Position numbers and translations under genes: made by a program | Part shown: piece after piece, positions 3,311-30,800 of the stretch | How positions within the stretch are numbered: position 1 is the first letter of the stretch | Layout: each line of letters opens with the position of its first letter | Notes under the pieces: model-generated | Databases searched by the model: none | What the model saw: the letters and a program-made list of their open reading frames with translations, nothing else | What the model was told of the DNA's origin: nothing | Assembly (NCBI GenBank): GCA_914767715.1 | Contig: OU612071.1 | Location: forward strand, 4,528,001-4,592,000 | Origin: Membranipora membranacea | Lineage: Eukaryota > Bryozoa > Gymnolaemata > Cheilostomatida > Membraniporidae | Reading direction: 5' to 3' | Length of the DNA: 64,000 nucleotides

Positions 3311-3797
3311 AACTCCCAAAATGGCCCGCGGCCAAAAACGGCCTGAGGCCCAAAACGGCCCGAGGCCCAAAACAGCCCGCGGCCCAAAACGGCCCAGCAT
3401 GATTTATGAGTTCTCCAAGTCCCAAAACCTCTAAAAAACGAGTTAAGTCAACGAACTTAAGTTTTTTTTGTGAAAAAAACTCACGTTTTCAAATTTTTCA
3501 AAAAAACGGCCTATCTTGGTTTTTGGGTTATCCAAGTTCCAAAACCTCTAAAAAATGAGTTAAGTCAACGAACTTAAGTTTTTGTGAAAAAAACGGCCCA
3601 CCATGATTTATGAGTTCTCCAAGTCCCAAAACAAAACTCAAAAACCAAGATGGGCCGGTTTTTTGAAACATTTGAAAACTTGAGTTTTTTCACAAAAACT
3701 TAAGTTCGTTGACTTAACTCGATTTTTTAGAGGTTTTGGGACTTGGAGAACTCATAAATCATGCTGGGCCGTTTTGGGCCTCAGGCCGTTTTGGGAC
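3311..3797. repeat. foldback element with GGCCCAAAACGG-rich ends
   Basis: The left end carries repeated motifs of the type AAACGGCCYGAGGCCC, followed by text containing TTATGAGTTCTCCAAG and TTAAGTCAACGAACTTAAG. The right part (about 3600-3797) is the reverse complement of the same text, including GGGCCTCAGGCCGTTTT. It looks like a MITE or foldback element inserted next to the retrotransposon at 3.8 kb. An internal duplication around 3540-3620 repeats part of the left arm. Confidence 0.8.
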
Positions 3798-5178
3798 CGA
3801 ACCCATCGATACAGACTGTCTGTAAGATCACCTACTGTTGTCAGATCATTGATTTGGTTCAGGTTCTTTTTCAAAACAGTGCAATATCTAAGGTATTTGA
3901 AAAGCTTCTGCTACAGTTTCTCAAACCATGTCTCACCGATAATACTCAGTTTGCATATCAGCAGCACCGTTCCACTGAAGATGCACTAGCATCCCTACTA
4001 GACATAGTCACAGAACATCTTGACAATAATGCTAAGAATCATGCGAGATGTCCATTTATAGACTTCTCAAGTGCATTCAATACTATCAGCCCTACCACAC
4101 TCTGCAACCAGCTGCAAGAAACCAGTCTGAATCCCGCAATACTCAACTTTGTATATGACTTCATGACAAACCGCTCTCAGAAGGTTCTCACTGAACAGGG
4201 CCTCTCATCTGCACTAGCTACCTCTGTCGGAACTCCACAAGGTTGTGTTATCAGTCCCCTTCTTTTTTCAATATATGCACAGCATATGCCTAAGCCTAGC
4301 TCTGGTAACTTTCATCTGATTAAATATGCTGACGGCACAGTATTGATTGAGCTTTTGTCGAGAAGTGATGTTTCATGTATGGGTAATGCTGCCCAAGATT
4401 TGGCTGGTTGGTGTCATGATAATGATCTATTTTTTAATGTGTCAAAGACAAAGAAGCTTGTATTGTGCAATCTTAGAGACAATCCTGTACATGATAGCTT
4501 AGTTATCAGTGGTAATAATGTAGAGCAGGTTGACAGTTTTAAATACTTAAGCACTATTATTGACAAAAAGCTTAAGTTCCAAGAATATTCCATCGAAGTC
4601 ATCAAGAAAGCCCGCAAGAGACTTTACATCATGAAGAAGCTGTATTCAATGCATATAGCTGTGCCTCTTAGAATACAATGCTATACTACTTTTATTGAAT
4701 GTACATTTTTTGTACCACCTTAGCACTCTATATGGCCACTTGTCCTCGTCATCTAGGAAATCGCTCAATAAAGTTATAAGCCTCGCAGGCTATCTAGGTG
4801 GCTGCGAGTTTGACACCATCGAGGCAATATACGAAAGAGTGATGAGAACAAGATGCCTCAGACTCGTAGCTACTGACCATGCGCTGACCCAGTATTTACA
4901 TTCGATAAACTTCCGTCTGGTTGATACAGAGCAATCAAAGCGAGGGTAAACATACGAACTGACTGTTTCCGATCCCTCTGTGTGCGGAAGTTGAATAGTA
5001 TACTTTTTTAGCCAACTAGTGATAATTCTTACTGTTTATTTTTATTTTTTTTCAATTTTTACAACCAACCAGACCAAAATTTTTAATGTTTACACCATAA
5101 CTTTTATTGCTCAGCGAAAACAAAATATTTCTCAAACATGAGACTGTAATAAACGATGAATGAATGAATGAATGAAAA
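3798..5178 (+). pseudogene. non-LTR retrotransposon, 5'-truncated reverse transcriptase and 3' tail
   Basis: From about 3870 the plus strand encodes a reverse transcriptase fragment. The finger/palm motif FIDFSSAFNTI is followed by GTPQGCVISPLLF and then YADG at 4325-4336, where the third catalytic residue of the usual YADD is replaced by Gly. The thumb-like part with KYLSTIIDKKLKF follows. The frame breaks near 4720 and continues in another frame to about 4949 with the usual C-terminal element region. Endonuclease and upstream parts are absent. The 3' end is a (TGAA)n run at 5154-5175, typical of CR1/L2-type elements. The copy is inactive: truncated, frameshifted and catalytically altered. 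It abuts the foldback element at 3311-3797. Confidence 0.85.
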
Positions 5179-5483: not shown

Positions 5484-5629
5484 GGACCACACACCGCGGT
5501 AGCTGTTTGTTTGGACCACACACCGTGTCAGCTGTTTGTTTAGACCACACACCGTGGCAGCTGTTTGTTTAGACCACATACCGTGGCAGCTGTTTGTTTA
5601 GACCACACACCAAGGCAGCTGTTTGTATA
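5484..5629. repeat. 29-bp tandem repeat, about five copies
   Basis: A unit of about 29 bp containing GACCACACACCG and CAGCTGTTTGTTT is repeated about five times with few changes. The length is not a multiple of three and no gene spans it. Confidence 0.85.
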
Positions 5630-5639
5630 GCCTGGTGTA

Positions 5640-6865: not shown

Positions 6866-9800
6866 CTGTAGATATGAATTTTAAAATATATGATGAAAGT
6901 TTAAAAAAAATTTGCAGGTCTTGGTAACGGGAAAAAAAGATTATAAAGCAATTAAATATATGACAAAAATTTAAAAAAAACTTGCAGGTCTTGGTAATGG
7001 GAAAGAAGATTGTAAAACAACTTATAAACACTCATCCTTTGTTTCAATGTGCATACTCAAAAGCATTCACTAAGAAGGTAAAAAGATATTAACCTATCAT
7101 CTTAAAACTTATTGATACTTTAATTCACTTCCTTGATGTATTGGTAAAGCGGTCAGCATCGACTCTCAGCCGGTTGTGTTTTAAATTTTCTTGTAAGGAT
7201 TTGGTCTTGAATGAAATGCATAGCTCCGATAAATTGTACGCAGGCAAAGTTATGTATACCTGCGTCCATAAACTCGACCATATATGTGGAGATGAACTTG
7301 AGCTGGATGTAAATAGACCTGCAAAAGAAAATGAAACAGACCTGTAAAAGATAATAAAATAGACCTGTAAAAAAATGATTAGATTAGGACGTCAGCATAC
7401 TGACTCTCGTGATCTGACTGGGCATGTAGATCACTGATAAACTAGGCTATCATTACCACAAAGCAGGTGTCGTAAGGCTAAGTATGCATCATGCGTGACT
7501 TGAATTTGCGCATGTGCAAGAACAATGAGTTTAGTTTGGGTTCTGAATGCAACTTTGGAAAGGGGAAATGGGATATCCCCTGCATAAACTGTCAATCAAA
7601 ATCAGCTAATGATGACAAGAGAGGATAACTATTAATAACAAATCCGCACGCTTTGGTGAGTATGTCACCAGAGCAGGTAGCCAATCAGATGGCTTCGGAA
7701 TTCCGAGACTCAATTTTGCAGAGATCAGCTCATGCCCAGCGCTGAGCATGCGCAGAATGGGACGTCAGGCCACAAGTGAGGGGCGTTTATTAGATAATAT
7801 CTCATGGTGGCCCAGCTCAGCTAAGGTAAAGAGTAAGAATAAAGGCTACAAATGGTGGTTTCCTGGCTAAGATAAGATTAGTTAAATTTCATTTGTTGCT
7901 TTCACCAAGAATGGAGTAAAATTAAGTGGCCGATGGTAGCTCGTTTAAAAATCGAATACTATTTGGTACAAAACTATCAGGGTATCTAGTTGTTCTAGTC
8001 TAGGCACAATTTTAGAGTTATCGTATAGTTTGTATACAATAACTCTATAGCCTCTTCCTCTCATACTATACATACCTAAAGTCGGGTGGGGGTATATTGA
8101 GGAGTAATACTATCGCCACGGTAACCAGGTCATCAGATGACGTCGCGGCGTAACCTTGTGTCCTTATATCTGATATAGTTGTACTCATACATCTCAAACA
8201 CTTAGCCAACATCTGCGCCTGAAGGTAAAAATATCAATATGAAATAATGAACAGAATTACACTTGCAGTCATATTTTACCCTAAGATTAAAATAAATTAA
8301 TTATGCATTACTTGTTACAGTTTTTTTCTTTGAAAAAAGTCCAAATTAAAGCTCCTGGTCTTCACCATCACAATAAAGAAACTGAACCCAAACTAGTATC
8401 TTCCTGAAGTTGTCTCCCTTACCTGAATTATTTGCATGAGCGATACAACCCCAAAAAAGGAGTAATAACTAAAAATATACTGAGTACAACACATCAGGAT
8501 AGCTAATCCTACAAATTTGAATGAAAGTGGAGTGTTATGGTACTGTTCACCTCAAGCAGTACACATAACAGTTAGGTGAACTGCTCACCTCAAACAGTAC
8601 CGTAACAGTTACCTCAAACTCAGTGTTCACAAACCTTGCCGAGAGGTGACGGCTTGGTCTCCATATCAATGAGGCATTGTACACTGTCAGCAAACATCAC
8701 AGTGAACTGATTGGCTCCTGCTATTGCAACACTCTGATTGGCCTGCTGGGGAGTGGACGGTGTGTTGATTGGCTGGCTACTGGTCGTCCTGAAAAAAAGG
8801 AATGTCAGTCAATGTTACAAGTGGTCATCGTAGATAAGAGAAAGAAAGAACTATCTTTGCTTGAAATCAGCTTGAATGGAGAATTACAGAGAATTCCCAA
8901 GACTATCACTTGCTTTTAATTGTCAAAGCAACTCATAGATTTACATGCACAATGTTGCAGTCATTGCTTAGACAATACATCAATTTATAGGGTGGTGAGA
9001 ATGTTAATTGCTCGCAGGGCTGCAAGTTTAGGCATTGGCCCACAAGATGTTGAACTTGTTCACGTAGTCCCAGTATAACTAACACTCAATGGGTCCCTTT
9101 GTATAAATGTATCGCAGTTTATCCCAAAAGGCTTTTAATCACCATACCTGTTACCACGCCTTGATTTGAATCTCCTGGACCGCCGCCGAGATACAACACT
9201 TTCCACATCCTTCATAGTGCGAGCCTGGAGTTCCCTGATTCTTGGGGACGGTAGTGGTGACTGGGGAGTACCGGGTGTTCCAGGTTGCTTCAGATATGTA
9301 TGAATGATACCATCTGTAGCTGAAAGAAAAATACACGGCTGATATTCAGTCCAGGTGAATCAGGGACATAGAAAAAGTTGTTCATCTGCGCTCTTAGGCA
9401 AAACAGTTTTGAAATACTGACATAGTGCTAGGATTCTTTCTGAGCAACTGTCTTCTATTGTCATATCCTACGTGGAAGATTCTCTTGGCTTGTTTTGAAG
9501 ATGGGTGAGAGGATGCAAGCTGTCAAATCATGTTGAGATGAGATTTGACTTCTTATGATTAGCATGGCTCTGTAGAGATGATATGAACATCATTGAAGCA
9601 GCAGTGTAACAAAACAGGTCAACCTCTGGATAAATGTTCTGTTCATGAAGCGATGCACTGTCTTAAATGAGAAGCTAAGAATAATGAAAAATAAAGACGT
9701 TCAAATGACTCATCATCATGATAGACTATACGTTGATACTTACCTCTGACGGCTGTGTCTCGGCTCCTGGCGCTAGTCTTAACCTTTGCACCCACAGACT

Positions 9801-12800
9801 TAGACCGGCCAGGTTTAGTCAGAGGCTTAGATGGCTGTGATGATGATGATGGCTCAGTGCTGCTTGGTCTCTGTATACTACGAGCTAAACGATATAAATA
9901 CAAAATAACACTATTGTATATTGTAGTGTCCCCAATACATAGGATTATCATATATAATATAATATATATATATTATAACTTGAAGATCCAATATGTGAAT
10001 CAATCAGGCGTACCCATTGGATGTATCTATAAAGTAACTGTATTACAGCGTACAGTCCAGTTATGGGACCAGGACGATTGTTTTACTAAATAGAGGAGTA
10101 AATATAAGCTACAGTTTAGTCAAACTAGATTTTGAGAGGGATAACAAGCACCCATTTTCACAAGGTAAGACTTTTCCTCCGCCAATTATTCACTCATGTA
10201 GGGTCTGAGCATAACTGTAACAAGAAGCATCACTGCCCTTTAATATCTGTCCGTTGTCATTACTGAGGAACACATGTACTCAGTAACAAGCAGTGCTGGG
10301 CCGTTGGTGCCACACAGTGAATGGGTTGTGACTACGGAATTGGGTCTGCAAACTTGGTCAGTCACAACACAAAATGAAGCCTAGACGTATGAAGCAAATT
10401 TTTAATCAAATTGAGACAAATGAACCGTACTTGTCTGTTATCACCCCTTACCCGATGAGGTACGACGAGAAAGGCGTTTGAAGGCAGGTTTTATGTCGTC
10501 ATTCAACTCTGAATCAGCTTCCATAGGATCATCTAATGTGTTCAGAGCTTCATCCAGCAGATCATCTAACTCTGCTGAAGTGTTGTTCTCAACGTCATTG
10601 GTCAAGTTTTCAGCGATAAGATTCTGATTGGATGTCTGTTGCTCATCTTGGCCCTGATTGGTCAGTTGCTTTTCTTCACCTTTGCTTTGCATAGGTGATT
10701 CAGTTCGATTGTCATCTTTGGAGGAATCAATTGTGTCGCTGGTAATCAGATCTGAAGCAACTGAGTCATGAAGTAAGTCTGATGGTATGTTACTAGAAAG
10801 TACACTTAGCTCTTCAGACCCATCTCTCGACTCTCTGTGTGAACTTTCCTGAGTTCTTTGAGATGCCTCTTCAGATTCTTTAGTCACATAACTATCATCT
10901 ATTTCTAATGAGGCCACAGATGTCAGCTCTAACCTCAGATTCAGCCGACTAGAATTTGCTGATGATGTCCGAGTGGTCAATGTTTCATGTTGGTTATCTC
11001 CGATGAGTCCAGCTCCACCATCAGCTGTTTGCTGACTTAGAGACTCAGACTGGATCTGGTGAGCGCTTTCCTCGACTATTGGAGAGGTACTCAATACTTC
11101 ATGGTACCCGCTGTCCGAATAACCAGGAGGCGAACTTTGTGCTGCTGCCCTTGGTGGATTCCTTTCTAATCCCAAATCATCAACGACTTGAGAAGCTTCA
11201 ATGAGACTACCTGATTCAGTTGAGTTTACTTTCAGACTGTTGAATGGTTGTGGTACATTAATTGTTTCGGACGCATTGCTTGTAGCTGTTGTCTCAACAA
11301 GGTGTGATGTGATTGGTTGATGTGCTGCATGATCCAAGTTCATTGGTTGGGATATTGTCTGGTTTGGGTTAATTGGTGGAGGTTTTGTGAGGTCAGATTT
11401 GATTGGTTGTTGTTTATTTCCATCTTCAACAGGAGTGTGCAGCAGTTTTAGCACCCATTCTTCTTCAATATCAAATTCTTCCCAAGTCAATCTTCTCACA
11501 TCATCGTTAAGGTTATCCAGGATACTTTTATACCTTTAAAATAAAAGTAGAATTCTGATGTGGCGGCCTGATTTTGCTTAATGTTTATTTGTTTAAAGAG
11601 GTTTTCTAGAAAGTTTACAGATAACAGAGTAGTTAAAAAGTAACTTGTTGACCTCTACACACTTTTTTGTTGTTGCGTGTTTATGTTTATTATTAATCTG
11701 TCGCTCATGAGGTTTGACAAACCAATCATGAAAATATCGGGCTCGAAACTTATACACCCGCCATTTAAAATACAAATATGTTTGCCACAAACGATTATGT
11801 ATTATGACATGAGAAAAATATTTAAGAATAATCCGATTTTATTCTAAACCATACGATATGATGGAATAGATCACTGTTTTGAGAATTCTCATAATGTATT
11901 TGATTCAGCACTCAATCTTGGTTCAGCCGTCTCTGCCTTACTGCTCAATGTTGAACGTTATCAAGCCATCATATCACCAGGGAGGGTAGGAGGGTGTATA
12001 TCCCACCCTCTCTGATATCACAGACTTACCTAAGTTCAAGCAGTGGTAATATATAAGGAGTTATCCTCTCATATATGATATTCTCATATGTAAGTATCAG
12101 CCTCTTAGTAGATGCAGGTGATGGCTTAATTCTACAACAAGGGAAATCAGAATAATGGGTTCAGTGTTGAGCAGATATGCCATAAGCTAAGCTACCGATC
12201 CGAAATTGTTACTCATAAAATGCACAACATCGCATCCCTTCTAATGGTTTACCCAACACAACATTCCTACCAATGGAGTAAACCACATGCGGCCGAAACG
12301 ATAGATAAGTGCTCTCTTTTTGCAGCCAATAGGGTTTCCCAGTCTCAATGAGAAAAAAAAGCCTGACATTTCACAGACTGAAGTTGCTGCATCCTTGTTG
12401 TTTGTCCAAAGGTTGTACTCAGTTGTTTTGACCCTTTGCGTCATATACTGCAGTTATGCCTATAGTTAAACTATGTTAACACCACAGACCATAATTAATC
12501 CTAACCAAACCCTAATTGAGATTAATGGATTCAAACTCCCAGCATTAGTTGGCTAACAGCTCTTACCCAAACCCAACTTTCATGATTATAACTAAAAATG
12601 CAGCAGGTCCACCCACAGGTCCGCCCACAGGTCCACCCACAGGTCCACCCACAGGCACACCTACAGGCACACCCACAGGTCCACCAACAGGTCCGCCCAC
12701 AGGCACACCCACAGGTCCACCCACAGGCACACCCACAGGTCCACCCACAGGCACATCCACTGGCACACACACATGCACACCCACAGGCACATCCACAGGT

Positions 12801-15800
12801 CCACCCACAGGCACACCCACAGGCACACACACAGGCACACCCACAGGCACACCCACAGGTGCACCCACAGGTCCACCCATAGGTCGGCCCACAGGTCCAC
12901 CCACAGGTCCACCCACAGGTCCACCCACAGGCACACACACAGGCACACACACAGGTCCACCCACAGGCACACCCACAGGCACACCCACAGGTCCACCAAC
13001 AGGTCCGCCCACAGGCACATCCACTGGCACACACACATGCACACCCACAGGCACATCCACAGGTCCACCCACAGGCACACCCACAGGCACACACACAGGC
13101 ACACCCACAGGCACACCCACAGGTGCACCCACAGGTCCACACACAGGCACGCCCATAGGTCCACCCACAGGCACACCCACAGGTCCACCCACAGGCACAC
13201 ACACAGGCACACACACAGGTCCACCCACAGGCACACCCACAGGCACACCCACAGGTCCACCAACAGGTCCGCCCACAGGCACACCAACAGGCACACCCAC
13301 ATGCACACCCACAGGTCCACCCACAGGCACACCCACAGGTCCACCCACAGGCACACACACAGGTCCACCCACAGGCACACCCACAGGCACACCCACAGGT
13401 CCACCAACAGGTCCGCCCACAGGCACACCAACAGGTCCACCCACAGGCACACACACATGCACACCCACAGGCACATCCACAGGTCCACCCACAGGTCCAC
13501 CCACAGGCACACTCACAGGTCCACCCACAGGCACACCCACAGGCACACACACAGGCACACCCACAGGTCCACCCACAGGTCCGCCCACAGGCACACCCAC
13601 AGGTCCACCAACAGGTCCGCCCACAGGCACACCAACAGGTCCACCCACAGGCACGCCCACAGGTCCACCCACAGGCACACCCACAGGCACACCCACAGGC
13701 ACGCCCACAGGCACATCCACAGGTCCACCAACAGGCACACCCACAGGCACACCCACAGGTCCACCCACAGGCACATCCACAGGCACACCCACAGGTCCAC
13801 TCACAGGCACACCCACAGTCACACCCAGTCACCCCACAGGTCCACCCACAGGTCCACCCACAGGCACACCCACAGGCACACACACAGGCACACACACAGG
13901 CACACCCACATGTCCACCCACAGGTCCGCCCACAGGTCCGCCCACAGGCACACCCACAGGCACACCCACAGGTCCACCCACAGGCACGCCCACAGGCACA
14001 CCCACAGGCACACCCACAGGCACATCCACAGGCACATCCACAGGTCCACCCACAGGCACACCCACAGGTCCACCCACAGTCACACCCACAGGCACACCCA
14101 CAGGCCCACCCACAGGCACACCCACAGGCACATCCACAGGCACACCCACAGGCACATCCACAGGCACACCCACAGGTCCACCCACAGGCACACCCACAGG
14201 CACACCCACAGGTCCACCCACAGGCACACCCACAGGCACACCCACAGGTCCACCCACACTCACACCCACATGCACACCCACAGGTCCACCCACAGGTCCA
14301 CCCACAGGCACACCCACAGGCACACCCACAGGCACACCCACAGTCACGCCCACAGGCACACCCACAGGCACACCCACAGGGACACCCACAGGTCCACTCA
14401 CAGGCACACCCACAGGCACACCCACAGGTCCACCCACAGGTCCAACCACAGGCACACCCACAGGTCCACCCACAGGTCCACTCACAGGCACACCCACAGG
14501 CACACCCACAGGTCCACCCACAGGTCCACCCACAGGTCCACCCACAGGCCCACCCACAGGTCCACTCACAGGCACACCCACAGGCACACCCACAGGTCCA
14601 CCCACAGGCCCACCCACAGGTCCAACCACAGGCACACTCACAGGTCCACCCACAGGTCCACCCACAGGCCCACCCACAGGTCCACTCACAGGCACACCCA
14701 CAGGCACACCCACAGGTCCACCCACAGGCCCACCCACAGGTCCAACCACAGGCACACTCACAGGTCCACCCACAGGTCCAACCACAGGTCCACCCACAGG
14801 TCCACCCACAGGTCCACCCACAGGCCCACCCACAGGTCCACTCACAGGCCCACCCACAGGCACACCCACAGGCACACCCACAGGTCCACCCATAGGCCCA
14901 CCCACAGGTCCAACCACAGGCCCACCCACAGGTCCACCCACAGGTCCAACCACAGGCCCACCCACAGGCCCACCCACAGGCACACCCACAGGCACACCCA
15001 CAGGCACACCCACAGGTCCACCCATAGGCCCACCCACAGGTCCAACCACAGGCACACCCACAGGCACACCCACAGGTCCACCCATAGGCCCACCCACAGG
15101 TCCACCCACAGGCACACCCACAGGTCCACCCACAGGTCAACCCACAGGTCCACCCACAGGTCCACCTGTTGTTACTTGATGTTAAACCACTGCTGCCACA
15201 CAGCCAAATGTGTGCTTATAGAATTCTGTACAGCTCAAAACTAATAAAATGAGGCTGCAATCTCAGCATTCTCACCAAATGAGCAAATAAATTGCACAAA
15301 CTGATCGTCAAATTTAGGGTATGAAATTAATTATCTACCGTCACGGCACGGGTGACGTAGTTACCGTCTTACTAATGCATACTGTACACATCATTAGCTG
15401 GTGGTAGATTTCATGCCCTGAATTTGAAGATCAGTTTGTGCAAATTATTTGCCCATTAGGTGACAATTATGAGATTTAAGTCTCAATTAATTATCGTGGA
15501 GCTATGCAGAATTCAATGAGCACAAATTTGCATGAGTGGCAGCAGTAGGTTAAGCTTATTATTGATGACCATTTCATCATTACTTCCTGGCTTCCTCAAA
15601 CTTATAGCTATTTTTATTCAGCCGTAAACAAATTGTCACACTGATGGAATTTAGTTCAATAATCATGAAGCGAGCAGCTGTGTTGTGAAGCCAAGCCAAA
15701 GTTTGGGATGTTGAAACTTGAGCGAATGAAATTGTGAGGTCAGTAAATTTTCAACGAGCATGAAAAGGCAACACCAAACACTAAAACTGTTACGTTTGTG

Positions 15801-18800
15801 CAGCAACCTGGAAACTGTTGGCATATTATACCATATGGAAGAGGCTCTAACCAAGGCCAGAATTAACGTATAATAATATGCAGCTTTAGCTTTGTTATAA
15901 ATATGCATTTGGAAGAATAAGGACTACAACCAAATAATGGGAATATTAGAGGTTACCACTACATAACAGGACTAGACCCCCAGCACCACCAAATATTCAT
16001 ACCGGCCTAGACGACTGAAACAGTGAAAGCAACCGATATCACAAACAGACAAAATGTGAGGGAAAGGTCAAGAGATTGTGAGAAAGAGTGAAATGTTGGT
16101 CCGAACCATAGACCTTATATAGAGTCTATTGTTCGGACCATGCTAAAGAGTAGCCTTTGCTCTCAGATGTCTTCATTCTAACAAACACTCTACTATTGTG
16201 AGTTTTTCATTGACTTCTCCTGTGCAGTTGCTCTGTGTATCAGGTGATTATGTTAAAGATATAAATCGGAGAAGGGGGAGGTATCAGTCGGTATTCATTG
16301 ATTCATAAAGAAAAGAAGAAACTGACTGACAGACCTCGCCAGAACTGTTCTGAGCGAGAGTGCAGTTGGAGACTTATAGAATCAAAGAGAGATAGTTAAA
16401 ACCAAAATTAAAACTATATGATAACCTTAGAATTTGATCAATGCAGGGTTCAGATTTGATTGGTTGCTCACAAACTAACTCACAAAATCGTTGGCCTTGA
16501 GTTTGGTGTGAGATAACAGAGTCTGGAGGATTCTTGGGCTGAGAAAAGCTCACATTGGAGTGGAAGAGGGAAGGAACGTACAACCACAAAGGTTCACATT
16601 TTGCTGGTGCAGTTGTGAGATGTTGCGATATTGTGATACAACAAAGGAATCAGCAAAGCATGTGCTTATATAAAGCTGTGAACAACATATTTATCAAAAG
16701 TGGCATAGTTGAATGCATATCAAAACTTGTTTACAACAACTTTTTCACCCACATCTGAAAAATTCGCGTCTGGCAAATTTAGCAGCATTTTTTAATTCTG
16801 AAAGGATAACGGTATGGCAAATATATTCGTCTTTTACAATTCAGCTGTTTTTTAATTATGCTATGGCATTATCTTGTCCACTTAAAGGTCCACAGAGAAG
16901 AACATCTATGATAACATGGGATCGAAAATAGAAACCTCTAAATATTTTAATTTAACTGTTTAGCATCTGATTTTTATTTGCTGCAAGAATTTCATTGGAT
17001 CCGTCTAGAGTTTTAAATAATAGACTAGGCCTAGTTAACTTGATGTTGAACAGTGTCCCACAATTGTAATCTGGACAACTCAGGGTCATCGATATCATAC
17101 ACCACATAGTTGACAAGTTACTCATTAACTTCACTCACTTGTAACAAGGTTAATTGGAATTTTGGGTATGTTGTTGACTTGGTGTATCTGATTCACCTAG
17201 GAAGACATGGTATATCAGGCTAACCTAGGAAGACATGGTATACCAGGCTCACCTAGGAAGACATGGTATATCAGGCTCACCTAGAAAGACATTGTATACC
17301 AGGCTCACCTAGGAAGACATGGTATACCAGGCTCACCTAGGAGAACGTGGTATATCAGGCTCACCTAGGAAGACCTGGTATATCAGGCTCACCTAGGAAG
17401 ACATGGTATATCACGCTTACCTAAGGAGACATTGTATATAAGGCTCACCTACGAACACCTGGTATATCAGGCTCACCTAGGAAGACATGGTATATTAGGC
17501 TCACCTAGGAAGACATGGTATACCAGGCTCACCTAGGAAGACATGGTATATCAGGCTCACCTAGGAAGACATGATATACCAGGCTCACCGAGGAAGACAT
17601 GGTATATCAGGCTCACCAAGGAAGACTATGGTATATCAGGCTCACCTAAGAGACTATGGTATATCAGGCTCACCTAAGAGACATGGTATACCAGGCTCAC
17701 CTAGGAAGACATACTATAACAGGCTCACCTATGGAGACCTGGAATACCAGGCTCACCTAGGAAGACATGGTATATCACGCTTACCTAAGGAGACATTGTA
17801 TATAAGGCTCACCTACGAACACCTGGTATATCAGGCTCACCTAGGAAGACATGGTATATTAGGCTCACCTAGGAAGACATGGTATACCAGGCTCACCTAG
17901 GAAAACTATGGTATATCAGGCTCACCTAAGAGACATGGTATACCAGGCTCACCTAGGAAGACATGGTATACCAGGCCCACCTAGGAGGACATACTATAAC
18001 AGGCTCACCTATGGAGACCTGGAATACCAGGCTCACCAAGGAAGACGTGGTATATCAGGCTCACCTAAAAAGACATGGTATACCAGGCTCACCTAGGAAG
18101 ACATGGTATATCAGGCTCACCTAGGAAGACATGATATACCAGGCTCACCTAGGAAGACATGGTATATCAGGCTCACCAAGGAAGACTATGGTATATCAGG
18201 CTCACCTAAGAGACATGGTATACCAGGCTCACCTAGGAAGACATACTATAACAGGCTCACCTATGGAGACCTGGAATACCAGGCTCACCGAGGAAGACAT
18301 GGTATATCAGGCTCACCTGGGTAGAAGATTGAGAAGCCAGCCGACAGTGTAAGCACTTTGTGTGGAGATTTTCTCTAGTATCAGAGTGAATACATCCGGC
18401 TCACTGACTAATAAGAAATCATCCTGTGTGATATCATATAACTGGTCCACTGCAGAAGGTATCAGGCTCGGGTCCTCCTAAAATTAAACATTAAAGACTA
18501 AACACAAACCAAAGGATCTTTTGCTCAGGCAACTAGTACTGATGCAATTAAGATGAGAATTCAACAGCTAAAAAGCTATAGATATTAAAAATACTCTGTT
18601 GGCTATATCGAATCGACAGAGTCTATTATTAATAGAAACAGGAAAGTGATCTAATGAAAACGAATTAAGTGTTTGGGGTTTGCCACAAAATGAGAGGCAG
18701 GCACATGAGCAGGCAACTCTCATATTTATATAATATTTGTATTGACATTATGTTAAGTCCACTATGTGGATTTAGAATGAAGGAAATGATATTAAGGGAA

Positions 18801-21800
18801 TCCTGTTGGACTTTTTGTAGTCATATTAACAACTTAATCAGGTGATTAAGGAGTTGGAAAGCTTGAACATTAAGGTCATGTACAGTATACTTTAAAAATT
18901 CCTTTATTATTAAATGTCTCAGATCTACAAATGTCTATTGTTACGCAGCAGGCCTGTTTTGGTTGAACATTACCCGGGGTAGTTGGTAAATGCCACAGAC
19001 TTTCCAACAGTAGAGTGCTTGTAAACTTGCTAGTTAACCTCACCGAAACAGTTAAGTAGCTTGACATGACAAGCTAACGAAATATTTGATCATGAAAGAT
19101 CAAATATGCCTGCATTTGGAGTTGCCCCCTTCCTTCAAGTGATAAGGAATACAGTCATTTTAGATCTAACTGGACCGAGGACAGACCTGCCACTGTAGCT
19201 TAGTGAGTTCACATTGCTCTATGATCCAGCTTGTCTCTAGTAGATGTTTCCTTCCTACTTCCTCCTCGACGTTCTGTATTATACTCAGCACGGCGTTATG
19301 TAGTGAGTGATGTGAGTGGTTTATAGTGTTCTTATATATCCGCGACGGAACGTCGTATCCTAGAATAAGAGGATGAACTTTGAATAGCTACTGATACCAG
19401 TTAGTTCTTCAGTAGTATGTAATGATAGATGTAAACAAAGATTTAGAGACAACTCCTTGGTGTAAAGGAAGAATTGTTTCCTTTGCAAATTGAAGTACCT
19501 TGGTAGGATTACAAAACTCAAGTCTTTATAGGAGAGGTATACACCCGAGGGTGCTGGGTGCTGGAACAATCAACAATGAAAGCTCCCCCAGTGGGACTCG
19601 AACCCACAACTCCTGCGGCACTAATCGCCTGGCAATGAATAGCAAGCTCGCTAACCGATTGCGCCATCTCATCATCCCCAAAACACGAAATTGAGAGTAT
19701 GGTAATAGTTAATCAACCACATCGATGATTTCAAACTGCTTTTCAACCTTAATTTACAGACATATAAACGGCATCAGGTTCTCATGTTGATGTGAATTCA
19801 TCTTACTAGATCTGCAAGAGATGAAAGACAGAGTCAGTGTTCCCCTTTACTCCCTTATATCATGTGGGAGACAACTCTTACTTTCATTTTGACAGCACAC
19901 AGTAGTAAGCTTTATCTAACCGACCAATAGCAAAATCCGAAATATCACACTATTACTGACCGTAAGTCTCGGGCTGACTGGCTAGCCTGTGTGTGACGTT
20001 ACGTATCTCCTCCTTGACTTGAGTAGCTTTGATCTTACCGCTGAGTAATAGTCCCTCCATCTTTTTAACTTTTCTCAGTTCGTCAGTGGCTGACTGGAAC
20101 GCCTCGCACACTATCGTCAGTTCTGTAAAATAACAGGGAGAATAGGGGTGGAAACTTTCACGTAGAGCCCTATCCATGTGCTACTTGTTTTGCAGATAAC
20201 GTGGGCTCAAACACTGATTACACGAAAGACCACTACGACTGAATAGCTGATAGAATTTTGTGTGGTCACCATTTGCAAATTAAAATGAAGTATGAGGACA
20301 CATTCAGCACTATGATGAAACTCCTTCTTCTATCCCTCTCATATACACATTCTTAAGGTGTGATCCCAACGCCTGTATATCAAACCATATCATCTGTCGG
20401 GGCCTTAGTTTACGACCATGTATTGAGCTATATGAGGTGGAGTGGTACTGTCCCCTGTGTCAGAGCAGAGTGACATGGGAACACATGCTTAGGAAAGTAG
20501 TGAGTCTGCTGGCTCCAGCTGTAGTGTTTTGGATAAAACAGCAAAATCCTCCTAGCAGCTGTTTGGGGACCTCGTAATCATCAATAGGGGAGAATTCAGA
20601 AGAGCAGAGTGTGCATTGAATTTCTTTGTCCCAATGTCAAAAGATGCTTGAGTTCCTGACACAATTTATTTGCTCAAAGTGTGGGGCTGGTATTTGAATT
20701 GATTGACTTATGCACAGAATGTATCCATCAGCAAGCACTTTTGTACACATGATACCCTATAGGATGCTCAGCTCAAACTTAAGTCATAGATCATATTCCA
20801 GGCTGGCCTGTTATGTCAAGCTTAGAAAGTTTAGAGGGGGGAGGGAACACAACAGCTCCCCCACACCAAGCCAACAATGCTTGTCAAGGCAGGCTATCTC
20901 CTACCATACAATGGTGAAGTGACTGTTATGACAAATTCTGATTAAGCTTAAGATCAACAAATTTCCAGCTGGCTGATATTTTTGTATTCTGAGACAGGAC
21001 AACTTACCACCAAGAGCCAAATCTGTGAAATTGAAAAGCAAACTCAACTTTGAAAAGCAGACAAACTAGAGCGGAACTCTAATGATGATCAAGATAATTG
21101 TGGTGATAAACACTAGGACTAAGACTAGGGCTCATGGGCCTTCTCCTGGAAGCCTGGATGTCTATTTGGTCGATGGAAATACCAAATTTGTATTTATGAC
21201 AAATTCTGATCAAGCTTAAGATCAACAAAATTCCAGCTGGCTGATATTTTTTTATTCTGAGACAGGACAACTTACCACCAAGAGCCAAATCCGTGAAATT
21301 GAAAAGCAAACTCAATTTTGAAAAGCAGACAAACTAGAGCGGAATGTCTATTTGGTCGATGGAAATACCAAATTTGTATTGGAAAAATTCCAAATAATTC
21401 ATGTGAAATGCCGCCGATAAGATCTCAGGCACATGTTTTATTTTTTTTCAGCAATTTGAGAGCAAGAGCTTACTCCCTCTGTTGCCCTAGACCAAGTCCG
21501 GTCCGTTCGTCTGCATTCGGAGTTGCTCCCCATCCACTGGTGGAAGAGAGCAACTGGAATGCAGGCAATTGAATTAAACTGGATCTACTGTTTCCCTATC
21601 GATCAAAGCTTGTGGAGACATGCTCTTTATACAGGTAGACTTACCATTCAGTAACTCAGCGTGTTTTCTCTTCCACTGACCAGAGACAGACTTTCTGCGC
21701 TTCTGCAGAGCTTTGATTATCTTGTTCTGTTCCTCCATCTGTTGCCTCACCACTGGGGTCAAGGTCACTCTCTTCAGCTGTGAAAATCAAGAGGGTCATG

Positions 21801-24800
21801 TGTGTGATATTGAAAAGTGATGATAGATTATTGTAGTTAGTATCGAAGCAACAGATGTTTCTTTTTCACTGAGAATAATGCACCATGAAGCTTCTTTTAA
21901 TGGAACAACCACAGATACATCATGTTCAGTCATGCGTGTGTGAAGTAACGAAAGAAATGAAGGGGTTCAATACCGGGTACAAGGAGAAAAATTGTTGTTG
22001 CTATTGGAGCAATTTCTCTTTCTTGACTTGTCATTTTTCAGCCCTTCCAGGCTTATTTCAATCAGGCCACCCGTAAAAGAAGTTGAAACTTTAAAACAGC
22101 AAATGTCATATGTAAATCCACCTGACAATATTTACAGGGTTCAATATCACTGACAGCAGTGCTTTTGAATTGGCTACAGCCTCATTTGTCATTAGTCTTA
22201 CTAATTAATTTATTCTAGGAGCAGTGAAACAAGTTGACCTGATTCAATTACAGGTGTATTATCATAGATCAAGGAATTTCTTACCTTATTCTGATTGTTT
22301 ATATCTCACCTCATTCTGATTATTTATTTCTTACCTTATTCTGGTTGTTTATTTCTCACCTTATTCTGATGTTGTTCTATCCTTGTGATGATGATCTCTG
22401 TTATATCAGGATATAGAGCTCTTAACTGAGGGTATCTCAACAGATCAGGTATCAGTTTCTCCTGTAGATTACTTAGTGTGGATTTAAAGGCTGTCCCGGT
22501 GTTGTTCCACATCTCCAAATCTTTGTCTATATAAATAAATAAATAATTATAAACTAAATAAATATAAACCAATATAATTAATAATTGACAACAATAAGGT
22601 TACCGCTGATGATACGCTTTTTTAAATTGAAGGCCTTCTGTAGTTGGTGCAAATCCAGTAGTTGACTAGCACCAACTACACATGGTCTGCGCTTTTGACT
22701 ATGCAAGGTTAATCTGCAGCACTTTTTGTTCACAAAGATTTAAAAATCATTGTGACATTTCTATCGACTACTGCTCGATTTTTTACATTGACATCGACAA
22801 ATTCAAAAATACTGGGCCAACAATTGACTTGTGAATATCATTGTGTTTGACATAGGAAAACAGGAGATATAGGACTTGTAGTTTCTTTACTCAGTTCAAT
22901 ACTTGTTGTAATCTAACACTATACTATAAAAAAGAAGCTCCCTTGCGCATACAAATATCATATTGTAAGCTCTCTAAATCAATAGACCTAGAAATAGATG
23001 TATTTTTTACTACCCCAGCAGTGGAAGAAGGAATTATTTCCAATTGCTTCAATTATATTTTTGATATAGAATCCAGAATACATTGTCCGCTTGATCTATG
23101 TATTTCTCTCCTTGATCATTGCTTTTTAACTTTTTATATACCTTCTATTTACGTAGTGGAGTTTGACTGCCCTACCGAGTTTGACTGCCTTACCCAGTTT
23201 GACTGCCTTACCGAGTTTGACTGCCTTACCGAGTTTGTCTGCCTTACCGAGTTTGACTGCCTTGCCGCGTTTGACTGCCTTACCGATTTTGACTGCCTTA
23301 CCGAGTTTGACTGCCTTACCCAGTTTGTCTGCCTTACCGAGTTTGACTGCCTTACCCAGTTTGTCTGCCTTACCGAGTTTGACTGCCTTACCGAGTTTGA
23401 CTGCCTTACCACGTTTGTCTGCCTTACCAAGTTTGACTGCCTTACCGAGTTTGACTGCCTTACAGAGTTTGACTGCCTTAGCGAGTTTGACTGCCTTACC
23501 GCGTTTGTCTGCCTTTGCGAGTTTGACTGCCTTACCGAGTTTGACTGCCTTACCGAGTTTGTCTGCCTTACCGAGTTTGACTGCCTTACCACGTTTGTCT
23601 GCCTTACCGAGTTTGACTGCCTTACCGAGTTTGACTGCCTTACCACGTTTGTCTGCCTTACCAAGTTTGACTGCCTTACCGAGTTTGACTGCCTTACAGA
23701 GTTTGACTGCCTTAGCGAGTTTGACTGCCTTACCGAGTTTGTTGATGGCGTTTAGTTGTGTCTCAGTAGCTTTGTGTAGCAGCTCTGTATCTTGTTGTGA
23801 TATGGTAATGAGAGGTAAGACCTGGTGATAGAGGATCTGTACTAGAGATTCATGCCTCTCTATATTCGTGTACTGGTCATCAGACATGCTACAATCAGAG
23901 TGGTGTTAGACCATAGACTTAATAGTAAACCTTGACAGGACACTATATGGAGCATTAGCATTGAGGCACAACTAAGTGCCTCACTTCAGCTGTATATGGT
24001 GTCCTGTCTAGGTTTAATATTAAGTCTATATGTTAAACACACTTCATAAATATACCATGGTGGATTAAAGAGGTTAGCAGAAGAGAAATATAAGGCTAGT
24101 TAAAATTTACTCAGACTCTTGGCCCTCTACCTTATGTTTAATCCTCTCCGTTAGAACCTTTTTTTAGGGAAGGGTGAGGCTGCCACTACTTTACTCAATT
24201 AATCTCAGTTTAAAACATGGCATCGCAGCAAATATTCATCTGCGGCCTTCATGTTTGAATTACACCGCAGAGGGTGTCTCAACATGTTGGCATGTTTTAA
24301 TGAACACATCGCACAAACTCCAATAGATGTAAGTGTAGAATATTCTCAATTTCTTAGTATGTCAACTCTTCCCCTAGTTTAAGAGCTCAAACTGTGGCGA
24401 GATACCAACAACTTTCCACTTTTTTGGTTGATGATGAAATGCCTCTACCAGCTATCCCTCCACAGTTTGAGCGCATGAACTACTCTTTCCCCAATCATCC
24501 CTCAGTCATTCACTACCTAGCCTTTTACAGGACAGTAGAGATCATGACCCTAATACTCACCATTCGATGAGTCTTTGCGTCGAGTCGAAGAGCTCATCCA
24601 TATTTATATTATACTCTTCGTCCTCCAAATATTTTATACTAGAAGGTTCCTGTAGAAAATAGAACAAGATTGAATTCGCTTCCTGTTTATTTCAAACTAT
24701 AGAAAACCTTGGTAAGACGGGGTCCAGTTGAAAACAACTAGAAAGAGATCGATAATCTTGTGGATAACAAGGATACATGAACTGTTTGAGGGAAAACTGT

Positions 24801-27800
24801 ATGGTTATTGCTGCTGGTGCTTGGCCTAAGCATGATTTACTAATTGATGAAATCACGAGACCAGCATTGACCAGAAGACACTAGTGTGCGAAGATATTTT
24901 AGACTTAGACTTACACTTAAAATATTAAATCTATGGGGAGGACCAAACAAAAATATCTTTGAGAACATGGGAGCATTCAGTGAATTCCAGCTAGATCGAG
25001 TTTAATCCAATTGCTCCCTTCCACTGGTCACGCCGCAGTGGAAGGGGGGAGCAGCTCCGAATGCAGGCAAATGGACCAGATTTGTTCTAGATTTTAACAG
25101 TTACCGAAAGGCTATAAATTTTCGATGGATAAAGGGAAGCTAGTTAGCAAGGAGGAAGTCAAATAAATCAAAAGGGCTTAATAAATAAACCTGAAACTAT
25201 AAGTGGTTTAGTATCCTAGAGGTCCTTACAGTTATTAGTTATCTAAACAAGGTAGTAAAGTTGGAGCTGTTCAGTTTGGAGAGCAGTTGAGTTGAGCCAT
25301 TATCAGACCACTTATAAGCCCACTTTATCCCCTGGACCAGTGATAGGCCCCCATATCCCCTGGACCACCAGTCCTATAGGCCCACCGGAACCCCGGGACT
25401 AGTGATAGGCCCACCTAAACCCCTGGGATGGTTGTAGCGCTAATGATGAGTCATATCACCCTTTAAGTTTTACGGAAGCCAAATTTCAGTTTAAAAGTAC
25501 TCATCAGCTATTTTGCATAATGTTAAAATAAAATAAGCACAATCTGAACTCCTGTAATTGCCGCTTGTAAAGTAAAATCACCTGGTACAAAAGTTTTAAT
25601 TAGTTGACTGTCAACACTCAGCAGGCAAGGATCATGAAAAATAGTGATGGTGGAAAATCAATCAACTAGATACAAAGCACAGTCATCCTCAAAATACAGT
25701 CATTAAACCTCGGCTTGTAAACCTGGCTGCAGTCCAATGAAAATTTAAGTTAACCTTCAGGGATTTATTGATAATAAGCCCTTCTTTACTACTGAGATTA
25801 TAATATGATTATTCAGACTGTCCGCTGTCATAACCAATGGTGGCCACTTCTCTACTTTATGCATTGCAGAATCGGGCCAGGGACCTAGATAACTACTGGA
25901 AAAACATTATCTTTTCACGGTTGAACAAGACCAGAATGGGTTATATGCTCTTTATCAGCTTGAGAAAGACTGCCGTTAGATTTGCCAAAGCAAACTAGTA
26001 TTTTATCTAAGCTGTGGGGTATAAAACAATAGCAGTGTTGTGACCTGTGTTATTGCTACCCTTGCACAATAGCCAGCTTCACTGTTATGCCCATTATGGC
26101 AAGTCATTGACTGCACTGACTAAATCTAAACTGGTGAATGCACCAAATCCCTGATGCACCTAATAATTGTAATTCCATTTTCTGACTATGTTAGAACATG
26201 GTTGACTTACAAGATCAGATATAAGTTTTTGTAAACTATTAAGATTAGGCCTACTATCAAGATTAGGCCTATGAGCTTTTTAGTTCTTGGCATGCCTAGC
26301 CGTACAACCAGGAGCCCGAGGGGCCGTCGGAAGAGGGGCAAAAGTCTGGGGGGGGGGGGGGGCTCAGACTAAGGAAGACCTTGTTATATACACCAGACTA
26401 AAATCTGCTTAACAGTAGGCCTACACTTATCAAAATTAAAATCCAGGCAGACACTCTGATAGCAAATGCCAAAATGCACTGAGCCATGGATTTCCTATCA
26501 GGGTCATTGCATTAAAACTGACCACATTAAAGTTATTTAAATCAAGGAAATGAGTCACCACTAGTTGGTAATTACATTGTACATAACTAATCAATCCATC
26601 ATCAGATACAATAGGAAATCTCTATTAATCATTCATAAAGTGCATAGATTAATCACCAGGTTCAAATTGCATCTATTCATGGAAAGATTAGAGTCTCTAG
26701 TTCCAATTGGGGCTAACTGTCATAGCTAAAGGTGGGGACTATAAGGACTCCCACAGAGCCATGAGTCATTAGTATTTCAGATATTTACAGACAAACAAAC
26801 CTCGAGGCAGCAAACAAAATAAACTATGGATGATGACAGAGGTGACTTTAATTTGAACAAATAAACAATGACTAGCAGTCAGTCAATTTATCTAAGAATG
26901 TGACATGGTTTGTGAGCTAGGTCTGTTCTATTTGAGAGTGGTCCCTGGGAGCTAGAAGCGTGAGAGTCATCATTTAAACCCTGAGCGCACTGTCTACTCA
27001 GGATGGGGGGGGGGGGCGCAAGAGTCTGGGGGCTCAGACTAACTGTCTGGTCTCTTAGGTTATCATCTATCAACCAGGTATATTTCCTGTATTTAAATGC
27101 TATTGAAATGTTACTGTAGGACAAGGATATTCAAATTCAAATGCAAAGAAAAACACAATAGGAAGAATGTTTGCAGATTGAATAATAAATAGGCCTAGGA
27201 AATTTCTATCCACGTGACTTCAGAGTGTAAGGATTATGACTTTCAGAGATTTTTCCTGTTAATCAATGATCTATAAAAAAAGAAGTGATGTGTGAAAATA
27301 ATATACCTGAAGGGTCTAGTCTATGTGGAGTTGTAAATCTATGCTATTTGTGGTATCAAGACCAATCATCAGATTGAAATCGATACCTTTGTACCTAACC
27401 CTTTCCATCATTCACCACCAATACTGAGCTGAATTCTGACCTGTTTTAAAGAGTTCTGTTGATTTATAAAATGTTCTGTTGTTTGTTCTTTGTATCAAGT
27501 TCATTAGCTCACCCTGCCATAGAAGCACCATTCTATCTGACGCGCTGAACAGTTAATGGAGACCCAATCTAGCAGATAAATCACAAACCAGATACCAAAG
27601 TTAGTATGGTTATCATCAATATCTTCCTCCTCTCTAACAAGGATAAATGAGGATCCATGGTGTTCTGTAAAATAAACCACTCAGATTGAAGTGCGCAAGA
27701 CACAGCTATACACAAGGGCAGGCAGGGTGGCGTAGTGGTTAAGATTCGAGCATCTCAATCTGAGAGTTGCAGGTTCAAATCCCGTCACTACCCATGCTGC

Positions 27801-30800
27801 TGAAGGAGGTGAGCTCTCAGGACAATAGCCTAGCTTGCCCACTCCTACCTTGTACAGGAGTGCGCTAAATTGAATATGTATATGTCTCAATGTTCTATTC
27901 ATGTAAAGATTGCTGGAGAGCAGCTAAGTAAAAAAAAAAGTGATTTACATTTACACTTATGAGAGATGAAAAAATTAACTTGACCAGAATAACTAACAAT
28001 TATAGTCCAGATATTGAACAAGTTGTCACATACATATCCGGACTGTGCTGACATTCCATTAAAAACTAACTGTGTCACATGACATGGGGATACCAAAGAA
28101 TCATTTTTGTAGCAGCTGGAAATTGGGAAAGTTAACAGTCACATGTGGATGAGGCTTTGCAACATGTATTCTGTTGATGACTTTGCTTCCTTGTTTTGCG
28201 GTTTCCTTACTGGGCTGTCGAGGCAGAGGGAAAGCTAAAGCCCAACGGGGACGTGAGACAAGGAAAATTCATATTCCATTATCATTTTTATCAGTTATGT
28301 GTGGAGAGTAAATTTGATAGAAGAAGATAAGTTATCTTTGTGATCATCAGGTGAAACTGTAGTAGGTACACAAGCTCATTATGTTATGTTCAACATTTAT
28401 AGTGTGCCTTTTACCCACTAGTATGTAAAGCATGTCTGTTCACTCAGGATCTACATGGTTACATCAATGTGTGAGCGATTTGGGGACAAGAACCCCTCCC
28501 CCCAGCAGGTCTGTGAGTGATCAGATAGTGATTTTCTTATTTTATAATTGATATACCCCAATGATTGACTTATTGAACTGCTGCCAGTGTAGAGCCTGTC
28601 AAACAATGCCTCAAAATTTATTGTGGTCACCCAAGCTCAATGTCCAGTCATTGCTCTCACATTATGTTAACCTTTTGATGAATGCCAAGAACTTGGCCAT
28701 TTGGTCTGCTTTATATACCAATCTTCCCAAATTGTTCATACATGCCCTACCATCTTATAGTGGAGTATGACTTTTCCCAAATTCAGAGCACAGCTAAAGT
28801 TATAAGGCAACACTAGTTGGTCTATTCGGATCAGGACCGTCAATACAGGAGGTCTACAGTGTGCCTGCATACAGTATAAAAATCCCCCTCTGCCTCTTCG
28901 AAAAAAAGGGTAGCCGGCAACGGCGGCCCAATGTATAGGGTATCTACCCAACACAAGCCGCATACGCTTAAGGACTTTTACTTTCCGGGAATAAATAGAT
29001 GCATCATCTGAATTCAAGACATATGAATACAAACAACCTTGAAATCGCATAACTTGACTTAATGCCAAACCATCTATTTCTAATGCGACTGTCACTTGTG
29101 GGAAGTTTGGCAACTTGACTGCATTATCAAAATATCTTGCACTGTGCCAAACCCTCCCAAGTATGACAGGTGCAGGAAATTTTAAACTCGATATACAGAG
29201 CATTGTACCATGTATGTGGAGACTTATTTCTGTTCTAAATTCTGATTAAAGAGTTACTGAACGAAAAAGGCAATCATAACAAACAAGTTCACCTGGAAGT
29301 TTGAGCCCTGCGATGTGTTTACCAGTTGCCCGGCCGCACTCCGCCCCGTTTATCAGACAGGACTCTATCCTGTGTCCTGACACAAGCTCAATCTTATCCA
29401 CTGCATGACTACATGAGCAGTCACGTATGAGGTGGAGTAACATGACTGTTATCGGCTGCAGTTTGTAGATCGTTTACTAGATATCCTCATTTCATGTCTG
29501 TCAGTTTCTGTGGAGTACAAATCAGTTATGGGTGTCAGTCAATGAGTTAACAGAATGATTTAGGCAGCAGAGTTTAACGGGTGTAAATAGCAAGCTTTGT
29601 TAGATAGTATACAACTTACTAATTAAAAGTAATGAAATCAGGCCTCCTGCTGGCCAGAGGAACTTGTCACCCGAGGTTTGCAACTGTGGCTTATTATGCA
29701 GGTCAACAAGAATCTTGCACCAAACCTGCCAAATCAATTCACTGAGAAATTGAAATGTTATGGTCCTATCTGAGTGATGAATTTAGAATCCAATCTCTAC
29801 AAACTAGACCAGAGAAGAGAAGAAGAAGTGGCTTCTTTCACTGCCCATGAACATCAGCCATTGCAATTACCTTTGATTGAGCTGATCAGGATATCTTCAT
29901 TCTATTTCTAATTAGGTGAGGAACGATCGTATGCACATCAATGTAAGTAGAGCAATGATATTAATTTGGATGTACAAGTAGAAAAGAAAACTGTAATGAG
30001 TATACCTCAACTGGTCTAGTTCCTCTCATTAGCCTTAAGTGTCAGTCAGTTTGGTGAGTAACTTCAGTTAATTCCTGGTGCCTGATTATTCCAACTGATG
30101 CAATGATAAGGAGAAAAATAAAAGAATAGTACCTGTCAAGCACTTGCTGAGGAGTGACTCAGCCAAGAACTTGACTAACCTGGGATATCCAGTGCTGGTT
30201 ATTGTGCTGATGTCATCAAATTATGTGTAGTTGCTTAGACCGGAAACCAAAATCCCAATGATATCTACCAAAATATTCAGTGTGTATCACTAAATTGTGA
30301 AAGCCAGCAATGAGTATTATTTACCTGCTCCTAGGCAATCACTTAAAAGGGCACCTGTCGTTATTCACCCCAATTTCCTCATTCTTAGCCTTCAATCCAA
30401 ACTTTAAAGATGGCATGCACTCTTGAAAGTATTAATTGAATTAGCAGATTAATGCAGTCACAATCAGGGGATTGAAGCTAACAAAACTACATAAACCACC
30501 AGGTAAGGAGTCAACCCTCCATTTCAGTCTGTTGAGTACATACAGCAATGTGGTTGCCTGCCATCAATGAACTAAACCTCCTGACTTCATCAACTTCATC
30601 ATCTTCATAAACTTCATAAAATTGAGGTTTAGTTCATTGCTGTCATGACAAGCTCCCACCTACAACAGACTGCCATGACAGAGTATAACTAATGATGACA
30701 GCCTCAAAGTAAGTCCACAAAGCAACTATTGCAGGGTTAAAAGATATTTACACTCTCTACTTCTTGCCACAGTTAATCTATACTGCTTGTAGGAGAAATC

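Follow-up and report, generated by a model that had tools for sequence, protein, structure and literature searches.

A 64,000-nt stretch of the genome of the bryozoan Membranipora membranacea (assembly GCA_914767715.1, contig OU612071.1, positions 4,528,001 to 4,592,000; hereafter the window) carries a gene for a VPS9-domain protein in which tandem repeat arrays lie across four splice junctions. The coding span of this host gene (7153..29443, minus strand) consists of 1100 codons spread over 16 coding exons and interrupted by 15 introns, and rests on reading frame, splice signals and a related protein; an earlier note on the sequence had placed the gene at 6.8-34.5 kb, which the model does not bear out. 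The model was built by hand from splice signals and reading frame, with two 5′ exons added by means of the relative. Exons 2 to 15 (E2-E15) form a single frame in which 13 of 13 intron phases agree.

A shortened C-terminal reading of the product matched the VPS9 domain (Pfam PF02204) at 33.2 bits against a cut-off of 27 (E = 7.1e-8), and exons 14-15 alone scored 22.7 bits, under that cut-off. Exon 15 (7153..7318, minus strand) holds the stop codon and the end of the domain, as indicated by frame, Pfam and alignment with the relative. Two readings of its acceptor, the last and the middle one, were tried in Pfam, and the domain was obtained from the last only. Searches with a partial exon set gave no identity, but the fuller model did: when residues 1-440 of the E2-E15 model were used as query (7987 candidates scored in a database of 5.8 billion proteins), the one match up to E = 1 was an uncharacterised protein of 1105 residues from Watersipora subatra (Bryozoa). 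The two proteins share 48% identity across 94% of residues 1-440 and 40% across the entire alignment, and the Watersipora protein aligns without insertion across the E3/E4, E4/E5, E8/E9 and E14/E15 boundaries. A tblastn search with part of the product against phages gave no match.

Tandem arrays span four junctions of the host gene

Exons 3 (23734..23888), 4 (22360..22526) and 8 (18317..18477), all on the minus strand and placed by splice signals, frame and alignment with the relative, each run directly into a tandem array. The gene model combined with Tandem Repeats Finder (TRF) confirms the earlier observation that arrays begin at these donors; more exactly, they begin 8, 11 and 9 nt inside exons 3, 4 and 8, respectively, and then extend into the intron. 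At exon 3, an 18-bp unit, (CAAACTCG/GTAAGGCAGT)n, is repeated 32.4 times (23159..23741, minus strand), and its first unit includes the final 8 exon bases and the donor GT at 23733-23732. At exon 4, a 25-bp unit is present in 3.8 copies (also read as 50 bp in 1.9 copies; 22276..22370, minus strand), covering the last 11 nt of the exon and the donor at 22359 and presenting the donors GTGAG, GTAAG, GTGAG and GTAAG in turn. At exon 8, a 28-bp unit of the form GTGAGCC...TTCCTAG, always beginning with GT, is repeated 40.5 times (17193..18325, minus strand) from the donor at 18316. These values agree with the approximately 32 copies, four donors and approximately 40 copies counted previously, and comparison of the three units upheld the statement that they are unrelated except for the donor. 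The exon-3 tail is identical to its unit (8 of 8 bases), the exon-4 tail agrees with its unit at 11 of 11 bases in the third copy and 10 of 11 in the first two, and the exon-8 tail agrees with its usual unit at 7 of 9 bases. GT is absent at 5 of 33 positions in the exon-3 array, one of which is the decayed end of the array.

A fourth case, absent from the earlier note, involves an acceptor. Three copies of the exon-15 acceptor, TTTNCAG/GTCTRTTT, are arranged as a 23-bp array (7311..7372, minus strand) that reaches 8 nt into exon 15. All 30 junctions, each represented by the 22 bases that surround it, were compared with 150 nt on either side; the exon-3, exon-4 and exon-8 donors gave self-matches of 22/22, 20/22 and 19/22, and the exon-15 acceptor 19/22. 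The remaining 26 junctions reached 10-15 of 22, and controls made with unrelated junctions peaked at 13-15 of 22; the exon-13 acceptor, at 15/22, lies one above its own control maximum of 14. Within the arrays, block duplications of 234 bp (13 units), 280 bp (10 units) and 50 bp (2 units) are visible.

Three other candidates in the gene were set aside. The exon-13 donor (8540-8634) is followed by three donor-like sites, TTTGAG/GTAACT, TTTGAG/GTGAGC and CTTGAG/GTGAAC, in loosely similar surroundings; its self-match of 13/22 equals the control maximum of 13. A 12-bp array at 12604-15166 lies inside intron 8 and touches no junction. It holds 214 copies of a unit of the TGGGTGGGCCTG type, with a strong strand skew in base composition and several open frames. 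Finally, an AT-rich array with a 15-bp unit (22535-22580) has its edge no more than 12 nt from the exon-4 acceptor but does not cross it.

Chance placement at the junctions is unlikely

Eight arrays with a TRF score of 50 or more lie inside the coding span. Four of them overlap a junction, compared with 0.15 expected (P = 5e-6) under a null in which arrays may reach no more than 12 nt into exons. The edge of an array lies within 12 nt of a junction in five of eight cases, the fifth being the non-crossing AT-rich array, compared with 0.52 expected (P = 5.5e-5). Under free placement that includes exons, a mean of 2.4 overlaps is obtained (P = 0.13) and the observed four are not unusual, because arrays of 2.5 and 1.1 kb would often cover an exon. 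The P values for the host gene are also optimistic since the gene was chosen as striking; counts over the genome are free of such selection. Chance placement at the host-gene junctions is thus unlikely, as the earlier note had judged for three junctions.

The outermost sites are probably those spliced

The Watersipora protein lacks inserts at all four affected junctions, which suggests that the first donor and the last acceptor are probably the sites used. If the second donor of intron 4 or intron 8 were used, translation would meet a stop codon before the end of the first unit added. The frame of exon 3, by contrast, continues open into its array, and each later donor would add six residues (GKAVKL; 18 bp = 6 codons) with no stop. 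Only two of ten unit lengths (18, 25, 28 and 23 bp in the host gene, and six first spacings on contig 1 described below) are multiples of three, giving no sign of selection for in-frame variants.

Preference for the outermost site would be remarkable, given that as many as 40 donors of nearly equal strength lie behind it. In introns 3 and 4, the first donor and the inner units have the same median computed energy of the U1 duplex. In intron 8, the first donor reaches -11.1 kcal/mol compared with an inner median of -9.5 kcal/mol, and no inner unit is as strong as the first. Weaker inner units may give the first donor of exon 8 an advantage, which would not apply to exons 3 and 4.

Donor words cluster across the genome

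The earlier note had proposed a genome-wide scan for repeats enriched at donors. Such a scan was run on the 339-Mb assembly (18 contigs) with donor words in place of annotated sites and the same words reversed as a control, and an excess was found. The triple AGGTRAG, with gaps of 8-38 nt, occurs 1932 times compared with 436 times for the reversed word. Close pairs of the perfect donor CAGGTAAGT number 103 compared with 3; single words number 4356 compared with 2523, from which 0.87 pairs are predicted by chance. The 100 places listed for the pairs fall into 31 clusters, or 30 when two places lying 0.7 kb from each other are merged, compared with at most 3 for the reversed word. Spacers vary among clusters where the letters were shown, and 13 of the 31 clusters have two or more matches and are array-like. 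Per word, the donor has odds of a close neighbour that are 20 times those of its reversal when matches are counted and six times when clusters are counted. If the surplus of single words (~1800) represents real donors, we estimate that one to two per hundred real donors have a second donor word nearby.

On contig 1, up to 34.04 Mb, AGGTRAG forms 21 donor clusters compared with 2 in the control (P = 6.6e-5). One 31-bp GTAAGT array recurs at six places in C1:33.57-34.04 Mb, perhaps in a gene cluster. Counting these copies once leaves 16 clusters (P = 0.0013), and dropping one simple and two coding repeats as well, with the repeat-coding locus L051 kept, leaves 13 (P = 0.0074). Since contig 1 is poor in control clusters, with 11 listed for the ~92 Mb made up of contigs 1 and 2 plus the initial 11.2 Mb of contig 3, a fairer ratio is ~0.62 compared with 0.12 clusters per Mb.

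Fifteen of the 21 contig-1 clusters were inspected individually. Six of these arrays begin at the end of an open, exon-like frame, namely those at L042-L045, L053 and L054. Across the set, exon tails match the unit at 12/13, 16/18, 37/38, 28/30, 17/17 and 18/18 nt, and the first spacings are 28, 34, 44, 41, 38 and 24 bp. By their matches in PDB (E = 6e-32 and 7e-16), L053 and L054 correspond to two exons of an inositol trisphosphate (IP3) receptor; the matches to solved IP3R1 chains stop at the last residue before the array, and the chains continue. L045 resembles the Asn_synthase family (E = 0.0013) at 18.9 bits, under the cut-off of 21, in a product that we take to be ASNSD1. No Pfam family was matched by L042 or L043.

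Two further pairs of contig-1 loci resemble each other. L046 (C1:1.89 Mb) and L050 (C1:10.37 Mb) carry one 17-bp donor-like array with near-identical flanks in opposite orientation. L047 and L048, ~34 kb apart, have similar frames with mucin-like 18-bp coding repeats (TT-L/A-GE), in which the likeness to donors arises by chance.

Other features of the window

A dispersed repeat (22200-22273) adjoins the intron-side end of the exon-4 array and was found at 39 further places among 40 scored, with 79-85% identity. Downstream of the host gene lies a 29-bp array (5485-5630) with GGTGTGTG in most units. The window also holds an open reading frame (ORF) for a reverse transcriptase (3758-4720; RVT_1, E = 1e-22). 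Relatives of this ORF reach 96%, and the named ones among the matches listed are from fish, mostly at 34-41% identity; no match was found by tblastn against viral contigs. ARAGORN, and Rfam at the gathering threshold, found nothing in the window.

Discussion

The architecture of these arrays, together with their placement, makes it probable that they are minisatellites that arose from tandem duplications spanning a splice junction, that later expanded and were tolerated, with some bias at splice sites in the formation or retention of such duplications. The last exon bases and at least the first six intron bases would be duplicated in tandem, and slippage or unequal exchange would then multiply and homogenise the copies. 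The outermost site, whether first donor or last acceptor, would stay in place and still be spliced, and the array would depart with the intron, so that such a duplication would cost little and persist. In 10 of 10 cases (four in the host gene and six on contig 1) the junction lies inside the first unit, and in 9 of 9 donor cases six or more intron bases remain when the exon overlap is subtracted from the unit length, as a tandem duplication would require if it is to spare the original donor. The repeats of 13, 10 and 2 units point to later growth by blocks. The suggestion in the earlier note that DNA is expanded from 5′ splice sites by a mutational process survives in part: donor words do cluster well beyond reversed words, but the excess may reflect formation or retention alike, and an acceptor has been hit too.

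Several observations weigh against this explanation. In nine of the 15 contig-1 arrays, a start at an exon was not evident: L047, L048 and L051 are open repeat-coding frames, L049 starts ~80 nt past a donor-like site inside an apparent intron, and L041, L046, L050, L052 and L055 lie without a visible exon. For L042-L044, the exon call comes from frame and a visible acceptor alone. Among the 31 CAGGTAAGT clusters, 18 are single pairs with no visible repeat unit, and one array on contig 6 gives 29 of the 103 pair matches. Among the arrays in 200 kb sampled at random from contig 1, none had a donor-like unit scoring at least 5 bits (two donor-like arrays tallied beside the sample are a single window array counted twice, once as L001), so junction arrays are thinly spread; two genes hold more than one. 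Extra strong donors near a real one should be harmful, which makes near-neutrality a presumption. Furthermore, the exon-8 array keeps GT in 41 of 41 units and positions +3 to +8 in 38-40 of 41, compared with 23-41 elsewhere, as selection predicts. GT is also kept in four of four exon-4 units, and the exon-3 array is most variable at positions -3 to +2 (23-29 of 31) and at +10. Donor upkeep is thus mixed, and we do not take it as evidence of function.

This mixed record bears on the proposal, raised in the earlier note, that arrays of binding sites for the U1 small nuclear ribonucleoprotein (snRNP) are useful; they might shield long introns from premature polyadenylation or strengthen exon choice. 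The intact GT in every exon-8 and exon-4 unit, the median U1 pairing of the units in introns 3 and 4, which is equal to that of the first donor, and the presence of three donor arrays in the host gene and two in the IP3 receptor gene would all suit it. However, donor bases are among the least conserved in the exon-3 array, with 5 of 33 positions lacking GT; introns 3 and 4 measure just 1207 and 582 bp; an acceptor, which does not bind U1, has been duplicated as well; and the arrays are placed where a U1 site was already present. We find this proposal unsupported and quite improbable. Another way in which arrays could be used would be for the inner sites to be spliced on purpose, each extra donor making the exon longer, in the manner of a repeat-coding exon or of the human interferon-induced gene discussed below. 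The exon-3 array, whose copies keep the exon frame open, favours such use, but the Watersipora relative has no such repeat, and we rejected a coding repeat there. With introns 4 and 8 running into a stop in the first unit and unit lengths showing no bias to multiples of three, purposeful use of inner sites merits very little credence.

Plain neutral duplication anywhere in introns, with exon-changing events purged and no preference for splice sites, would make the arrays that touch a junction no more than the visible margin of a wider set. Changes wholly within exons would indeed be purged, and the random 200-kb sample contained 0 donor-like arrays. Yet the null with exactly that filter gives 0.15 overlaps where four of eight arrays overlap (P = 5e-6, in a gene chosen as striking), and the pair odds exceed those of the reversed word 20-fold by matches, of which one array supplies 29 of 103, and sixfold by clusters. 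Neutral duplication without preference is consequently unlikely. As for an artefact of assembly or sequencing, long near-identical arrays are difficult to assemble, but the many loci with unrelated units, internal mutations and higher-order structure, in an assembly whose five contigs of stated length measure 23-41 Mb, make this extremely unlikely. We retain junction-spanning duplication with a bias at splice sites as the most probable explanation of the arrays.

The earlier note knew of no named class for such arrays, but one exists. Amphioxus "mirages" are described as minisatellite-like tandem copies that span exon-intron boundaries at the 5′ and 3′ ends of introns in several genes, with units of 10-160 bp (PMC3087553, PMC3902484). 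The genes include globins (PMC3087553) and PGBD5 (PMC3902484), with Adh3 (Canestro et al. 2002) and troponin C cited there. The authors' reverse-transcription PCR suggests that regular splicing continues, and length instability was reported (PMC3087553, PMC3902484). The Membranipora arrays are alike in having boundary copies, at four host-gene junctions and six contig-1 loci (three with homology), in unit lengths that fall within this range (18, 23, 25 and 28 bp in the host gene, 24-44 bp at the six others) and in affecting both boundary types, with three donors and one acceptor in the host gene. They differ in occurring in Bryozoa and not Cephalochordata, in reaching ~32 and 40 copies in two arrays, in the concentration of four arrays in one gene and in the genome-wide count of donor words. 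By their sequence features the bryozoan arrays fit the mirage class, whose evidence on mRNA splicing and instability comes from the amphioxus work; the multi-unit duplications inside the host-gene arrays suggest length instability here too. The kind is thus already known from lancelets, but among the open papers searched we found no report of mirage-type splice-site repeats in Bryozoa or this part of the animal tree.

Two other systems are related more distantly. Intron gain by tandem duplication (the Rogers model, cited in PMC3087553; potato RdRp, PMC4974935) likewise copies splice signals in tandem, but the intron that results is new and has its two ends supplied with signals by the duplication, whereas each bryozoan array sits at one end of an existing intron. 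The acceptors of introns 3, 4 and 8 (exons 4, 5 and 9) gave self-matches of 14, 13 and 12 of 22, within their control maxima of 14, 14 and 13, so the two ends of these introns do not both derive from the duplicated unit, as intron gain would require. Human internal tandem repeats at exon-intron boundaries resemble the bryozoan arrays as boundary minisatellites that alter gene structure, but they change exon or intron content in recent paralogs; the available part of that account describes no donor-anchored series in one gene (PMC2812944).

There is reportedly also a human precedent, an interferon-induced gene (IFI6/6-16) with a minisatellite that provides multiple splice donors, to go by the title of a 1995 report by Turri et al. 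There too, minisatellite units supply splice donors. Several of those donors reach the transcript, if the title is a guide, whereas the bryozoan reading frame and relative favour the first donor.

More tentatively, the bias might come from a duplication process linked to splicing or transcription that targets splice sites, although we hold this to be possible rather than likely. Candidate drivers at the exon-intron boundary would be R-loops, U1 or the spliceosome on nascent RNA, or conflict with replication. If such a process exists, it would repeatedly strike some germline-expressed genes in distant phyla (bryozoan, lancelet, perhaps human) and feed intron growth and the birth of new splice sites. 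In the accounts available, a few genes had linked mirages to a single lineage; their presence in a protostome, four of them in one gene, together with donor pairs lying close together by the dozen in one genome, makes it possible to test whether splice sites are subject to a general bias. The arrays also provide a natural competition series of 4 to 41 near-equal donors for the question of how a 5′ splice site is chosen.

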